64,000 nt of DNA from Candidatus Syntrophocurvum alkaliphilum (lineage in GTDB: Bacteria; Bacillota; Syntrophomonadia; Syntrophomonadales; Syntrophomonadaceae), in NCBI RefSeq assembly GCF_009734445.1, contig NZ_CP046457.1:1792001-1856000 (forward strand). The letters are read 5' to 3'. Within the stretch, counting starts at the first letter, position 1. Each line of letters begins with the position of its first letter. The notes below the pieces were generated by a model that saw only the letters and a program-made list of their open reading frames with translations, was not told where the DNA came from and ran no database searches. A program made the position numbers and the translations under genes. Shown one piece after another: positions 4,195 through 43,491 of the stretch.

Positions 4195-4265
4195 AGGGAA
4201 GCAGGGAGGGGTGTTCTTTTGCTTCCTTTAAAGGAAGCAAAAGAACCGTCCCCATGCTTCCTTGC
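4195..4265. repeat. Long GGGACGGTTCT-type hairpin (family 3, copy 1, decayed)
   Basis: The right arm carries GGAAGC, AAAAGAACCGTCCCC and GCTTCC. The left arm is the same in reverse but has GGGGTGTTC where GGGGACGGTTC is expected, so this copy has lost two bases. The variable word is GGAAGC, as in the copy at 43424. It lies between rnr and the HD-domain gene; apart from a weak TATAAT at 4306-4311 I see nothing else in this gap. Confidence 0.8.
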
Positions 4266-17625: not shown

Positions 17626-17701
17626 GGGGGGAGTAGAACAGGGGACGGTTCTCTGTTTTGCCCTTGTAGAACAGAGAACCGTCCCCTGTTCTACTCCCCC
17701 C
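17626..17701. repeat. Long GGGACGGTTCT-type hairpin (family 3, copy 2)
   Basis: A perfect 32-bp stem (17626-17657 with 17670-17701) around a 12-base loop. Each arm holds GTAGAACAG, GGGACGGTTCT and CTGTT. The words TGTTCTACTCC and CTGTTCC repeat just outside the right arm (17702-17722). It lies between yvcK and whiA. Confidence 0.9.
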
Positions 17702-24906: not shown

Positions 24907-25152
24907 TTGATTCCACTGCAAGAGCCCCTTAGATAGTACGACATCTTGCGTATATAAAGATAAGGAGCACTTGACGGAGCAAGGTAGTATTACCCGGTGA
25001 AAGCGGAGTTAGAAAAGGGGCGCGTCACAGGACGTGACGCGAAGGCTATCGCTCCAAGGACGGAGCGTTAGCCTGGTACCCTTTTATAACGTAGCTTGAA
25101 CCGTAGGTAATACACCTTGTGGAGTCTGGCGACGTTCTTTATATACGCAAGA
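24907..25152 (+). ncRNA. Candidate structured RNA element with two AGGAC-loop hairpins
   Basis: A nested fold is readable by eye: outer 17-bp stem TCTTGCGTATATAAAGA (24944-24960) with 25136-25152; CAAGGT and TATTACC (24980-24994) with GGTAATA and ACCTTG (25106-25119); CGGT (24995-24998) with ACCG (25100-25103); GTTA-AAAAGGG (25008-25019) with CCCTTTT-TAAC (25079-25090). Enclosed are two hairpins, CGCGTCAC-AGGAC-GTGACGCG (25021-25041) and a 12-bp stem with loop AAGGAC (25044-25073). It is clearly more GC-rich than its surroundings. The left edge TTGATTCCACTGCAA matches the end of the family 1 MITEs. It has no useful open frame. It could be an RNA leader of oppA, an independent RNA, or a palindromic mobile element; I do not recognise the family. 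Confidence 0.5.
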
Positions 25153-25255: not shown

Positions 25256-26821
25256 ATGTCTAAGAAGAAAGTTTTCACTACTCTGTTGTTATTGGTTTTT
25301 GTGTTTAGTTTCACGCTTGCTGGCTGTGGTGGAGAAGGAACCGGAGAAGTAGATGATACAACCATCTTTACAGTAGCAAGAAGTACTGACGCTGACCTAA
25401 TTGATCCAGGCTATGCTTGGGCTGAAGGTGACATTGACCCAGTTTATCACGTTTTTGATGGATTACTTCAGTTTAAAAACGATGACTTAGATGTAGCACC
25501 AGCATTAGCTACCGATTGGGAAATGTCTGAGGATGGTAAAACATGGACTTTTTATCTACGCGATGATGTAAAATTCCATGATGGTACAGATTTCAATGCA
25601 GATGCTGTTGTTTTCTCTTTTGAGAGAGTACTAGATGAAGATCACCCCTACTACGGTGTTGTACAAGGTGGTTACTCATACCTTAATTACCTAATGGGTG
25701 ATGTAATAACAGAAGTACGTGCAATTGATGAATTTACAGTTGAAATAGAGCTAGAACAAAAATTTGCTCCATTCATAACCTATATGGCGCACTACTCTCA
25801 ATTTATAGTTAGCCCAACTGCAGTTGAAAAATATGGCGAGAATTTCCCCCAAAATCCAGTAGGTACTGGTCCATTTGTATTTGAAGATTGGAGACAAGGT
25901 GAGTACATAAGACTTGCGGCTAATGATAACTACTGGGGTGAAAAGCCGGAAATTGACACTTTAATATTTAAGGTAGTTCCAGAAACATCAACCCGTTTAA
26001 TGGAATTACAAACAGGACAAGTAGATGCTATTAAACATATAGACCCAGCACAAATATATGCTGTTCAAAATGATGATAATATAGATTTACTTACAGTTCC
26101 AGGTGCTAATCTCTTCATGGGATTAATTAATGTAACCAAAGAACCTCTTGATGATCCAACATTTAGAAAAGCACTTAACCATGCAATTGATATGGATGCC
26201 CTTGTAGATGTAATTTATGAAGGTACCGGAACAAGAGCTATAAATGCTTTACCTCCTACTGTATTTGCCTTTGATGAAACTGCTGGACCATATGAGTATG
26301 ACCCTGAAAAAGCAAAACAATTACTAGCAGATGCAGGATACCCTGAGGGAACAGAAATAGAACTTGCATCCTTTACTCATGCTCGTTCCTATATATCACA
26401 ACCTGTACAAGTAGCTGAGATTATTAGAGCTGATTTACAAAGAATAGGTCTAGACGTTGACATTAATGTTGTAGAATGGGGTACTCTTACTGAAATGAGA
26501 CAAAGTAGAGAGTTTGACGTAGCCTTATATGGTTGGTATGACGTTCCTTATCCAAGTAACTTCTTAAGAACAATGATGCTTGGTGGAAACCAATCCGGAT
26601 ATGAGCCACAAGAGCTAGTAGACATAGCTGATCAGGCTTTAGCTACTTATGATGAAGCAGAACAAGAAAAGCTATATAAAGAGCTTCAGCAAGAATACTA
26701 TGAACAAGCTCCTATAATACCAATTGCTCACAGTAATTACTCCGCAGCAGTTCGATCAGATATTGAAGGATTTCAATTAGATATTATGGGTAATGTACTA
26801 ATGCATGATGTAATTAAGTAA
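25256..26821 (+). CDS. oppA: Oligopeptide-binding lipoprotein, OppA/DppA family
   Basis: A 521-residue extracellular solute-binding protein (SBP family 5) anchored as a lipoprotein: signal MSKKKVFTTLLLLVFVFSF ending in lipobox LAGC (Cys about residue 24). LATDWEMSEDGKTWTFYLRD and NPVGTGPFVFEDW are family landmarks. It delivers peptides to OppBCDF. ATG 25256 follows GGGAGGG. The leader holds a small hairpin CTTCGG-N7-CCGAAG (25202-25220) and, upstream, the folded element, which may set its expression apart from oppBCDF. Confidence 0.95.
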   Translation: MSKKKVFTTLLLLVFVFSFTLAGCGGEGTGEVDDTTIFTVARSTDADLIDPGYAWAEGDIDPVYHVFDGLLQFKNDDLDVAPALATDWEMSEDGKTWTFYLRDDVKFHDGTDFNADAVVFSFERVLDEDHPYYGVVQGGYSYLNYLMGDVITEVRAIDEFTVEIELEQKFAPFITYMAHYSQFIVSPTAVEKYGENFPQNPVGTGPFVFEDWRQGEYIRLAANDNYWGEKPEIDTLIFKVVPETSTRLMELQTGQVDAIKHIDPAQIYAVQNDDNIDLLTVPGANLFMGLINVTKEPLDDPTFRKALNHAIDMDALVDVIYEGTGTRAINALPPTVFAFDETAGPYEYDPEKAKQLLADAGYPEGTEIELASFTHARSYISQPVQVAEIIRADLQRIGLDVDINVVEWGTLTEMRQSREFDVALYGWYDVPYPSNFLRTMMLGGNQSGYEPQELVDIADQALATYDEAEQEKLYKELQQEYYEQAPIIPIAHSNYSAAVRSDIEGFQLDIMGNVLMHDVIK

Positions 26822-29130: not shown

Positions 29131-29184
29131 GTAGAACAGGGGACGGTTCTTTGTTCCATTTTGTGAAACAAAAAACCGTCCCCG
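29131..29184. repeat. Long GGGACGGTTCT-type hairpin (family 3, copy 3)
   Basis: GGGGACGGTTCTTTGTT (from 29139) pairs with AACAAAAAACCGTCCCC (ending 29183) with a few mismatches. The outer left word is GTAGAACAG as in copy 2, but the inner word is GTTTCA-like as in copies 4 and 5, and the outer right word is missing; this copy looks like a chimera or a decayed copy. It lies between the convergent rpiR and pgi/pmi genes. Confidence 0.8.
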
Positions 29185-29191
29185 TGATTAC

Positions 29192-38722: not shown

Positions 38723-40723
38723 CTATTTCTTTTTCCGCTTGCGCGTTTTTTTCTTCGGTGGATTTTGGAGTTCTTTTATCACATCTCTTAACTGGGCAGC
38801 TCTTTCAAAATCCAAGTCTTCTGCCGCTTTGCGCATTTCTTGTTCTATCTCCTGTACTAGACGGTCTCTTTCTTCCTTGCCTAGCTCACCAAAATTAGAA
38901 ATATCATACTCTCCAGGTTCTTCGGCTACAGTGGCTTCAATTGCCTCATGAACAGCTTTTTTAATACTCTCAGGAGTAATGTTGTTTTCTTCATTATATT
39001 TAATTTGCTTTTCCCTACGCCTATTAGTCTCATCTATAGCTACACGCATTGAATTAGTTATATTATCGGCATACATAATAACTTTCCCCTCAACATTACG
39101 TGCAGCTCGTCCTATTGTTTGTATTAGTGATCGTTCTGAGCGTAAAAAACCTTCCTTGTCAGCATCAAGTATAGCTACTAAGGCTACCTCGGGTAAATCA
39201 AGACCTTCTCTAAGTAAATTGATTCCTACTAAAACATCAAATACTCCAGATCTTAACTCTCTTAATATCTCCATTCTCTCCAGTGCATCTATATCAGAAT
39301 GCATATACCTTACCTTTATATTAGCATTAGAAAAATAATCACATAAATCCTCAGCCATTTTCTTAGTAAGTGTTGTTACTAACACTCTAAAGCCTTGGTT
39401 TACTGTATCATGTATTTCATTAATTAAATCATCTATCTGGTCTACTGTTGGCCTTACATCCACCTCTGGATCGATTAACCCGGTGGGGCGAATAATTTGT
39501 TCTACCACCTGTAAACTTTTTTCCAGTTCATAATCCCCCGGTGTTGCACTTACATATATTGCTTGATTAATCTTTTCATCAAACTCATCAAACTGTAGTG
39601 GACGGTTATCTAAAGCTGAGGGTAATCTAAAACCAAAATCTACTAGGTTTTGCTTCCTAGACCTGTCCCCACCATACATACCTCTAACTTGAGGTACAGC
39701 TATATGAGATTCATCCATAAATAATAAAAAGTCCTCTGGGAAAAAGTCTATCAAAGTATACGGAGGTTCTCCGGGAGCACGTCCTGTTATATACCGTGAA
39801 TAGTTCTCAATACCTTTGCAAAAACCTACTTCCTTAATCATTTCTAAATCATATCTAGTTCGTTGCTCTATCCTTTGTAGTTCTAAGAGTTTATCTTCCT
39901 CTTTAAACTTTTTCATTTGCATTTGGAGTTCTTCTTCAATTTCATCAGCTGCTAATAGCATTCGGTCACGTGTTGTTACAAAGTGAGATGCCGGAAATAT
40001 AGTAACATGCATTCTACGTCCAAAAACCTCACCAGTTAAGTAGTTAAACTCGATAATTCTATCTATCTCATCTCCGAAAAATTCTACTCGTATGGCATTT
40101 TCTGATGTTGAAGCCGGAAATATTTCTACAACATCTCCCCTTACCCTAAAATTGCCTCTATCAAAAGCCAAATCATTACGTTCGTATTGGTTTTCTACTA
40201 ATCGTTTTAAAAGATCATCTCTAGCTATCTCCATTCCGGGGCGAAGAGAAATCATCATTTCAAAATAATCTTTAGGTGAACCTAATCCATATATACATGA
40301 AACACTGGCCACAATAATTACATCCCTTCTTTCAAGTAAAGATGCTGTAGCCGAGTGTCTTAGCTTGTCTATCTCATCATTAATAGAAGAGTCCTTTTCT
40401 ATGTAAGTATCGGTATGGGGTACATAAGCTTCTGGCTGATAATAGTCATAATAGCTAATAAAATACTCCACCGCATTATCTGGAAAAAAACCCTTGAATT
40501 CAGAATATAACTGTCCTGCTAAAGTCTTATTTGGTGCCATAATTAAAGTAGGCCTTTGCAATTCCTGAATAATTTGCGCCATGGTAAAAGTCTTCCCTGA
40601 ACCAGTTACCCCTAAAAGCGTCTGATCCCGATTACCATTTCTTAACCCCTTTACTAATTTCTCAATAGCCTGTGGTTGATCACCAGTAGGTTTGTATTCA
40701 GACCATAATTTAAATTCAGCCAT
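38723..40723 (-). CDS. uvrB: Excinuclease ABC subunit B
   Basis: A 666-residue helicase-like repair protein. Walker A GVTGSGKT (about residue 39), the beta-hairpin region [21 protein letters not shown], helicase motifs [13 protein letters not shown] and QTIGRAARN, and a C-terminal UVR motif that contacts UvrC. The start is ATG 40723 ([18 protein letters not shown]), eight bases after GGAGG. The frame stays open to 40876 but those 51 residues are a translation of hairpin repeat copy 4 and should not be annotated. Confidence 0.98.
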
Positions 40724-40771
40724 AATCTCTACCTCCTTTTCAAGGCTGGACCAAGGTGAAGCAGGGCGGCT

Positions 40772-40835
40772 GGTGAAACAGGGGACGGTTCTTTGTTTCA
40801 TTTTGATGAAACAAAGAACCGTCCCCTGTTTCACC
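40772..40835. repeat. Long GGGACGGTTCT-type hairpin (family 3, copy 4)
   Basis: Perfect 30-bp stem with loop TTTG. Each arm holds GGTGAAACA, GGGGACGGTTCT and TTGTTTCAT. Variable word GTGAAAC. A further CACCTGTTTCACT follows at 40839-40850. It lies just upstream of uvrB. Confidence 0.92.
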
Positions 40836-40875
40836 CCCACCTGTTTCACTCGCTGCACCGTGTCCTGCGCCTGCA

Positions 40876-41967
40876 TTAGAATTTTTCTGGTTTAGTTTCT
40901 GCAACAAGCTCTTCTCTTATTTTGTTTCTCTTTTTATCTAGTCTTTCAAAGTCCATAGCAACTGAGTATATCTTTTTGAGCTCTTTAAGTGCATTATTAG
41001 CACCTTCAAGTTTTATTTGACCATTTTTTATTTGGGCTTCATAGTTACGTAATGCTTCACTAGTTTGAGTTTCTACAACAAATGGATCATAATCATCATC
41101 TAAATACTCCGACATATCTATTATTGAATCCCATGGATTAATAGAAATCTCTATATCGCCAGCATCTATTAATGCAATTTGCATATCTCTTAAAATTAAC
41201 ATTACTATACTTTCTACTTGAAATCCACAATGATAGTATTCCAGTAAACAACCTCTTTTTTTAGCTTCTTGTGCTAATTCATTAATGATTGTAGATTTGC
41301 AACTACCAGGAGGGCCTTTGAAAATAAAACGCTTCTTACAATAAGCACTTATTTCATCTACATAGTTTACCACTCCTTCAGCAGTAACAGCACTAGCAAA
41401 ATAATGCTTTTCCTTAGATCTATTGCTAAATATTTTATCATTTAACTGCTTTAGTAAAACCTCTATTTTCTCTAGATTTAAAGAGTTAGATGTAGCTCTT
41501 TTTATTTCCTCCTTAATTTCCCCTGCCTTTTTCATTAATACAGCTGCTTCATTGTTTAAATTAATCATTGAATCAACTAATTCTGTAATAGCTTTTTTGT
41601 TATGTTTAATAGCATCCCTATCCCAATAATCTCCTAAATAAATCATTTCTTCTTTTGCCCCTGGGTACTTTGGATCTATAGGTACTGGCAAGCTACCGTT
41701 TATTACTGCCACCTCCAGTTGCGGAATATAAACTCCATCTGGACTCAAAGGATCTACTGCTGAAATCCAGAATTCGATTTCATACCCCTGTTCTGCCAAA
41801 GACTCGCCTAGTAACCTAATAAAGGTTGATTTACCTGATCCTGCTGGACCTTTTAAAATATACACTTTTGTTAACTCAGCAATTAGTTCTGGTATAAATG
41901 TATAATAACCTTGGATTGTATTACTACTTGTAAATACATATCCAATTCTACCCCTATTATTGCTCAC
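40876..41967 (-). CDS. Two-P-loop ATPase of unknown function (PRK06851-like)
   Basis: A 363-residue protein built as two similar halves, each with a Walker A motif: [13 protein letters not shown] (about residue 38) and [13 protein letters not shown] (about 216, with an unusual Cys). Between them is a coiled helical segment (about 125-180). The second half includes [15 protein letters not shown]. Proteins of this kind are found in Clostridia and Bacilli as conserved hypotheticals. GTG 41967 follows AGGGGG. It lies upstream of uvrB, but long hairpins on both sides make cotranscription doubtful. I cannot assign a role. Confidence 0.75.
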
Positions 41968-42069
41968 CTTATTTCCCCCTTTTTAAACTCACAATCTCTT
42001 AATTAATATATTCAGAATATGAGTAAAAGGTTAATGCTTTTGTTAAGCAAATTATAATAAAATAGGGTA

Positions 42070-42129
42070 AAACAGGGGACGGTTCTTTGTTTCACTTTGC
42101 AAAGTGAAACAAAGAACCGTCCCCTGTTT
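42070..42129. repeat. Long GGGACGGTTCT-type hairpin (family 3, copy 5)
   Basis: A perfect 60-base palindrome with no spacer: arms of 30 bp meet at CTTTGCAAAG. Each arm holds AAACA, GGGGACGGTTCT and TTGTTTCAC. It lies between the PDZ protein gene and the two-P-loop ATPase gene. Confidence 0.92.
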
Positions 42130-42145
42130 CATCTAATTCATTTTC

Positions 42146-43423: not shown

Positions 43424-43491
43424 AAGGAAGCATAGGGACGGTTCTTTTGCTTCCTAAAAAGGAAGCAAAAGAACCGTCCCTATGCTTCCTT
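43424..43491. repeat. Long GGGACGGTTCT-type hairpin (family 3, copy 6)
   Basis: Perfect stem of about 30 bp around TAAAAA. Each arm holds AAGGAAGCAT, AGGGACGGTTCT and TTTGCTTCC. Variable word GGAAGC. GCGCTTCC follows outside the right arm. It lies between the CtpA/B protease gene and the MinJ-like gene. Confidence 0.92.

Follow-up and report, generated by a model that had tools for sequence, protein, structure and literature searches.

A family of hairpins in the 64,000-nt stretch of DNA analyzed here (the window, meaning this whole stretch) raises the question of why a short variable word should be repeated four times around a nearly fixed core. The original prediction had placed such hairpins at six loci (4195, 17626, 29131, 40772, 42070, and 43424), and all six were found in the window. 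As argued below, we consider the hairpins to be most probably gene-less (miniature) copies of elements that encode a REP-associated Y1 transposase (RAYT), in which the word, X, would be a specificity word read by the HTH recognition helix of the cognate enzyme.

Hairpin anatomy and the RAYT genes of the same genome

With X taken to be the four nucleotides that precede a nearly invariant CA, the six hairpins were resolved as follows (no strand is assigned to them).

43424..43491, full family A hairpin with GAAG-CA at all four word places; its halves are identical to the two ends of the L003 RAYT element
4197..4261, family A hairpin with the word GAAG and a degenerate left core (GGGAGGGGTGTTCT)
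17633..17694, family C hairpin with the words AGAA, AAAA, AGAA, AGAA and more CTGTTCTAC pieces to its right
29132..29190, decayed family C hairpin with the discordant words AGAA, GGAA, GAAA, TAAT
40773..40834, family C hairpin with GAAA four times and one more CTGTTTCAC piece to its right
42067..42132, family C hairpin with the words AAAA, GAAA, GAAA, GAAA

The predicted four-fold repetition of the word was therefore exact in three of the six copies, namely 43424 (GAAG), 40772 (GAAA), and 4195 (GAAG, despite the degenerate left core). Hairpins 17626 and 42070 had one deviant word each, and in 29131 the repetition clearly failed. With up to two mismatches allowed, GGGACGGTTCT occurred at 17 sites in the window compared to 4.8 expected, a number reached in none of 100 shuffles. 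No Rfam family covered the hairpins at gathering thresholds. Elsewhere in the window, Rfam detected a TwoAYGGAY RNA at 24972-25127 on the plus strand (54.5 bits, gathering threshold 43), downstream of which lies a frame (25256-26821) resembling a peptide-transport binding protein. The mechanically called uvrB frame (38723-40876, minus strand) crosses a hairpin (window positions 40773-40876); its true start is likely MAEFKLW..., downstream of the hairpin.

The genome to which the window belongs contains three Y1_Tnp genes that encode RAYTs (L001, L002, and L003). The three proteins comprise 253 to 265 amino acids and carry an HUH motif (NHVH, NHLH, or NHIH) and a Y-x-x-x-NP motif (YIHQNP or YVHNNP). 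The Y1_Tnp profile scored above its cut-off in all three and the NCBIfam RAYT model in one, with the other two just below; weak matches to HTH profiles, under the Pfam cut-offs, were obtained for two of the three. Each gene sits between ends of the design X-GGGGACGGTTC-X' and has its own class of X, the classes being GAAG, GAGT, and AGAA/GAAA, each followed by CA. The gene of L003 is flanked by GGAAGCATAGGGACGGTTCTTTTGCTTCC and GGAAGCAAAAGAACCGTCCCTATGCTTCC, which are the two halves of window hairpin 43424, and that of L001 by GAGTCAAAGGGGACGGTTC ends, while the gene of L002 lies between a TAGAACAGGGGACGGTTC end and an entire hairpin with outer TAAAACAGGGGACGGTTC. Because the RAYT genes are flanked by single X-GGGGACGGTTC-X' ends, the window hairpins can be described as two RAYT-element ends joined without the gene; hairpin 43424 carries the termini of the L003 element but lacks the gene.

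The original prediction had suggested a REP-associated Y1 transposase as a possible source and had proposed asking whether X correlates with a particular transposase. Both suggestions were borne out by the three word classes beside the three transposases, and the second also by a comparison of ten genomes, in which the word of 39 of 58 full hairpins also stood at a RAYT end of their own genome. When genome labels were permuted, the matching fraction was 0.11 (standard deviation, 0.06; maximum, 0.37 in 2000 permutations). The 58 hairpins consisted of 46, among those listed up to genome G023, from nine relatives with RAYT loci (one of two in G003) and 12 from the genome of the window, the latter chosen by hand from 32 so that each distinct type was represented once. 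The listed hairpins of G002, G006, G012, and G023, genomes from which no RAYT was included, were left out of the test. The words of the other 19 hairpins, two of them in the genome of the window (GAAA words), were absent from the RAYT ends of their genome.

These results led us to the following model. The full element consists of a left end (LE), the rayt gene, and a right end (RE), with LE being X-GGGGACGGTTC-X' and RE its inverted copy, so that X occurs four times; in a window hairpin, a short loop links LE directly to RE. With about 4 to 5 bases followed by CA, X would serve as an address for the recognition helix in the C-terminal HTH of the cognate RAYT, and the GGGGAC core, common to elements of different specificity, would presumably be recognized by the HUH catalytic part that the enzymes share. 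Each end would offer two inverted HTH sites around the core and both ends together four, and for this reason all four words would follow the transposase when its recognition helix changes. The anatomy, the tie to RAYTs, and the transposase-specific X are computational results, as is the covariation of X with HTH residues described below; from these sequence relationships we infer that the enzyme physically binds the ends and mobilizes the element.

In the 2.36-Mb genome, 32 exact core...core' hairpins were present, compared to none for the reversed pattern, and single cores with at most one mismatch numbered at least 149 versus 12 for the control. The analyzed parts of the genome contained 42 full hairpins, and many copies were solo ends. 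Among 123 two-word arms from these parts, the words were GAAG/GAAG in 32 and GAGT/GAGT in 31; most of the remaining arms had mixtures of AGAA, GAAA, AAAA, and GGAA. These mixtures reflect a third family, in which the inner word is mostly AGAA and the outer word GAAA (19 arms), AGAA (10 arms), AAAA (6 arms), or GGAA (4 arms). The claim that four positions change in concert thus held for two of the three families but not for the third, where the agreeing pairs are left and right rather than inner and outer words.

Several further features of the genomic copies were observed. Outside many ends there are arrays of terminal pieces that begin or stop exactly at the terminus and have a variable inner cut point, and some full hairpins have mirror-image tails on their two sides; examples of such arrays or mirrored tails are found at 1969068, 1862765, 1903373, and 1322662 of this genome and in the flanks of L030, L034, and L036. 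The family A hairpins at 1107023, 1522662, and 2047121 have about 36 nt of the right flank in common (TTCCTCTTCCTTCTG...), but not the left flank. On C1 of the same genome, seven LE..RE pairs of single ends with the same word class were noted (10731/12374, 13490/14499, 32812/33110, 35683/36707, 137048/138149, 190087/191339, and 225661/226891; L177, L178, L181, L182, L185). The paired ends are 0.3 to 1.6 kb apart, none of the pairs encloses a RAYT, and six of the seven enclose ordinary genes, judged by reading frames, such as acetyltransferase-like, methyltransferase-like, and carbamate-kinase-like frames. These pairs might be cassettes or due to chance; the cassette claim was dropped, as neighbors of opposite orientation within 2 kb occurred 7 times as LE..RE and twice in reverse, too few for a conclusion.

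Words at RAYT ends and residues of the C-terminal HTH

The RAYT sample combined 80 loci from named genomes with loci whose genomes belong to the same family and phylum. From 241 RAYT frames, 13 duplicates, 8 with short flanks, and 4 with N runs were removed, leaving 216 distinct RAYTs with usable flanks. GGGAC was present on both sides of 184 of these, and 32 lacked the both-sided pattern. Of the 184, 9 without a CA-anchored word were dropped from the analysis of CA-anchored words, and 31 without a register-consistent word from that of the second word register (see below). A search around G445 that was meant to reach another phylum apparently returned already-sampled genomes, as indicated by matching contig coordinates, and was kept out of the independent data; a search around a Bacteroidales record gave mostly partial matches and was left out of the analysis.

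The ends were located by the GGGAC nearest to the gene, blind to any stem, and one RAYT was used per lineage of less than 60% identity (n = 107). The constancy of GGGAC at the ends is a consequence of this choice. The longest exact X/X' stem within an arm averaged 6.1 nt for both LE and RE, compared to 4.1 and 4.0 nt after shuffling (standard deviation, 0.09), and the outer words of LE and RE shared 6.2 nt versus 3.5 nt (standard deviation, 0.10); the observed values were reached in none of 300 shuffles. Of 368 arms, 319 had CA among the 6 nt preceding the G run, compared to 134 in a control stretch, and 333 had TG directly after the core, compared to 125. The six nucleotides following GGGAC were GGTTCT in 58 of 117 left ends and variable elsewhere. 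RAYT pairs of less than 60% identity rarely had the 6-nt outer word in common, whereas pairs above 70% mostly did, showing that the words change fast.

Four loci of one RAYT in relatives (L124, L148, L149, and L152) had the stretch between GTGACAAGGGGAC (left) and GTCCCCATGACAC (right), inclusive, in common, and their flanks were unrelated except for terminal pieces to the right of two of them. As the outer word is common to four insertion sites with differing flanks, it lies inside the element and is not target DNA. This observation bears on the idea that X pairs with the target as a guide or cleavage word, in the manner of the tetranucleotide guides of IS200/IS605. A Y1 element with a short variable word at either end would fit such a role, and, judging from the arrays of terminal pieces found outside many elements, insertion may favor the terminus itself. 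In view of the constant outer word, and because the best protein predictors of X are located in the HTH and not in the catalytic part (see below), we regard a guide function as very improbable.

Across 252 protein columns, mutual information with the five positions of the word was highest in the C-terminal HTH. The top pairings (numbering of the L003 protein) were residue 251 with X-2, 240 with X-1, 256 with X-4, and 252 with X-3; residues 255 and 250 also ranked near the top, with Y87 between them. Residue 251 was the top column with each of the four word copies used alone. A second word register was chosen solely so that the four copies agreed (153 RAYTs; 90 lineages). Eleven column-position pairs exceeded z = 5 in this register, of which 10 belonged to the HTH and one to D25.

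The pairings corresponded to preferences for particular bases among 100 lineages. Arg or Lys at position 251 was accompanied by G at X-2 in 59 of 73 lineages, compared to 0 of 27 with other residues (p = 1.8e-14). Gln240 went with G at X-1 (9/10 versus 9/90), and Ile, Val, or Leu at this position with A or T (62/70 versus 9/30). At X-3, Gly252 was associated with T (14/22 versus 10/78) and Asn252 with A (13/16 versus 35/84), and Arg256 was associated with G at X-4 (32/46 versus 18/54). Arg/Lys-G and Asn-A are pairings familiar from direct readout by recognition helices. The three RAYT proteins of the genome of the window fit these rules. L003 (Q240, E251, N252, K256) has GAAG, and L001 (I, R, N, and R at these positions) has GAGT. 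By the same reasoning L002, with L, V, N, and R, would be expected to favor GAAA, which is the most frequent outer word in its family, over the inner AGAA. In the AlphaFold2 model of the L019 protein, which is 64% identical to L003 (mean pLDDT, 92.7), the HTH-like helices span residues 222-233, 240-247, and 251-256, so that residue 240 starts the second helix and residues 251-256 form the third. The best fold match of the whole model was E. coli TnpA-REP with its REP hairpin.

When X was predicted from six HTH residues (240, 250, 251, 252, 255, and 256) with relatives of at least 60% identity left out, the accuracies for X-5 to X-1 were 0.47, 0.59, 0.67, 0.83, and 0.77, compared to 0.32, 0.47, 0.49, 0.62, and 0.55 for the majority base; the six residues had been picked on the same data that were predicted. 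At each position this prediction was better than each of 50 random column sets. With columns chosen inside the training folds, the accuracies were 0.38, 0.48, 0.56, 0.79, and 0.70, so that X-4 (0.48 versus 0.47) was predicted no better than by the majority base; the first word register gave no gain at X-4 either. In all five folds, residue 251 was picked for X-2 and X-1, 240 for X-1, and 252 for X-3. Among 182 pairs of close RAYTs (at least 62% identity) with different words, 46 were identical at 240, 251, 252, and 256, which is partly due to noisy word extraction.

An association of this kind could merely reflect shared ancestry, with X and HTH diverging along one tree. Close RAYTs do have words in common, and some columns outside the HTH scored as well. 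In a test stratified by identity over residues 1-200, the values for HTH pairs included E251/X-2 (z = 39), Q240/X-2 (z = 34), Q240/X-1 (z = 30), and N252/X-3 (z = 23); the best non-HTH column was E180 (z = 25), and 14 of the top 25 pairs were outside residues 211-257. Among 87 independent nearest pairs (1008 tests; Bonferroni limit, 5e-5), E251/X-3 (p = 1.5e-6) and N252/X-3 (p = 2.9e-5) came first, followed by the non-HTH pair Y43/X-2 (p = 9e-5) and by K256/X-4 (p = 1.9e-4).

Additional data came from the Coriobacteriia, which we take to be the class of the Adlercreutzia record, where GGGAC was present on both sides of 52 of 68 RAYTs. In 26 lineages that were less than 60% identical to the first set, G again accompanied Arg or Lys at 251 (18/19 versus 2/7; p = 0.002). 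The rules for 252 and 256 were not significant in these 26 lineages, and at X-2 and X-1 a first prediction from the six residues was no better than the majority base in the Coriobacteriia set. Since the association holds among 100 lineages of less than 60% identity, under stratification, in independent pairs, with relatives left out, and partly in another class, and since matched random columns fail to predict X, ancestry alone is a highly implausible explanation.

We therefore favor reading of X by the HTH. The covariation probably represents a code of nearly one residue to one base (251 to X-2, 240 to X-1, 252 to X-3, and 256 to X-4) in a separate, evolvable HTH, with the fixed GGGGAC core serving the catalytic part. 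If this code is true, several families with the same core and private addresses could coexist in one genome, and a new family would arise by altering a few recognition-helix residues together with the four words.

Repetition of the word within and between arms

The original prediction had offered selection for a two-state structure, in which each arm folds alone or both arms form one stem, as one explanation of the repeated word. Positions at which the four words split 2:2 speak against it. In 40 four-word hairpins of the genome of the window, 21 split positions had left equal to right with the outer word differing from the inner, and a single one showed agreement within the arm. At the ends of RAYT genes (128 of the 184 RAYTs had four words), 7 splits were within-arm, 23 outer/inner, and 14 cross. 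Agreement within an arm was thus the rarest class (7 of 44 and 1 of 22). In the Coriobacteriia, the very few 2:2 splits were 3 within-arm and 2 cross. Because the words differ in pairs across the long stem rather than within the arm, the two-state fold is unsupported, and compensatory pairing within an arm was set aside for want of support from these splits.

The same counts weigh on a related possibility, that each end folds alone and that the HTH or the HUH part of the transposase recognizes a single-stranded X/X' stem, as in the hairpins of REP and IS200/IS605. X/X' complementarity per arm is far above that of shuffled arms, and structurally solved relatives bind single-strand hairpins, according to the available text of PMC8266576 and the titles of structures. 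An HTH could also read a folded stem, which would be compatible with the residue-base code. The rarity of within-arm agreement argues against recognition of a lone folded end, as does the CA-TG spacing, which has a mode but varies by 2 nt and more, and we consider this alternative possible but rather doubtful. The main reason why X' repeats X is, we infer, that each copy of the word matches the HTH of one and the same transposase; two inverted sites for this HTH account better for a word that recurs within an arm.

In full hairpins of the genome of the window, the left and right arms agreed at 155 and 156 of 160 positions and the inner and outer words at 135. This symmetry, together with the mirrored tails of some copies, would be expected if the concerted words were due not to selection but to a hairpin being copied along its own length, with fold-back or template switching correcting the long stem. 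As the sole cause such copying is unlikely, since it leaves unexplained both the similarity of X and X' in single RAYT ends and the tie between X and the HTH. Copying along the hairpin is likely as a second process beside HTH recognition. The left/right symmetry of the long stem would then be an additional effect, probably due to how full hairpins are copied, perhaps by this separate fold-back process.

Relation to known elements

The elements fit the description of TIRYTs and of TnpA-REP subclass 2.1, to which we assign them. In a TIRYT or TIRtron (Di Nocera et al. 2013, PMC3733652), a RAYT-like gene is enclosed by long terminal inverted repeats, some of which are self-complementary or form repeat families, and most but not all of which have the motif GGGGWSAS (PMC3733652, PMC6006769, in the available parts of both). 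All three RAYT genes of the genome of the window are likewise located between terminal inverted repeats. Their core GGGGACGG differs in agreeing with GGGGWSAS at 7 of 8 letters; some other lineages carry GGGGACAG, which fits the motif. The transposase-specific word, its four-fold repetition, and the link to the HTH are absent from the description in the accessible text of PMC3733652.

Quentin et al. (2018, PMC6006769) likened subclass 2.1 to the TIRYTs and equated it with group 1 of Bertels as cited there. According to the available text, this subclass occurs in 14.9% of the surveyed strains and has a C-terminal HTH extension and a median length of about 238; no REP-like sequences were found for it, and the authors suggested that its HTH perhaps does not read the target or has acquired a new one, possibly aiming at the replication fork. 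The RAYTs studied here resemble subclass 2.1 in the HUH and Y-x-x-x-N-P motifs, the length of about 250 residues, and the C-terminal HTH. They differ in having repeats and a likely reading by the HTH, contrary to that survey as far as its available text goes.

Other known elements are more distant. GTAG REPs and REPINs (groups 2 and 3, the groups covered by Corneloup et al. 2021, PMC8266576, in its available parts) share a RAYT beside its own palindromic family and paired inverted ends that spread as miniature units, but here a self-complementary word surrounds the GGGGAC core and the enzyme has an extra HTH. The GT[AG]G hairpin foot was not found; families A and B end in GGAAGC and GAGTC, and GTAG occurs only where a G chances to precede TAGAAC. 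The gene-less and putatively mobile copies resemble MITEs in that their terminal inverted repeats are those of an autonomous element in their genome, but the transposase here is a Y1 HUH enzyme. CGTC REPs have an unpaired CGTC end tag and no linked transposase gene in the available description (PMC3733652). The complement of the core here contains CGTC, but within the core, and the ends flank RAYT genes. IS200/IS605 elements (subclass 1.1) have a Y-x-x-x-Q motif and the core domain only, whereas the Y motif found here ends in NP and is followed by a 100-residue C-terminal extension.

In our literature searches, whose coverage was incomplete (e.g., for Bertels et al. 2017), no transposase-specific word or HTH code was described for such elements, and a search with the letters of the core returned, by their titles, unrelated papers only. 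Within the literature searched, three observations are new, namely the miniature form with joined ends in these bacteria, a word that occurs four times and is tied to its transposase, and the covariation of residues with bases. For subclass 2.1, neither a repeat partner nor a role of the HTH is established in the available parts of PMC6006769 and PMC3733652. The covariation suggests the X-GGGGAC-X' end, together with its joined miniature form, as the repeat partner, and the HTH as the likely reader of X. The code would also explain the coexistence of several families with one core in one genome, and its explicit residue-to-base predictions make the coevolution of RAYTs and repeats testable.

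The left end may have a further role. In 38 of the 184 RAYTs from relatives, a -35-like and then a -10-like box cover the region of the left-end inner word, and such a promoter was found within 120 nt in 48 of the 184, compared to 2 in the same scan of the right end. Because these promoter-like boxes overlie the left inner word, a RAYT bound to its left end could shut down its own gene and thus control itself.
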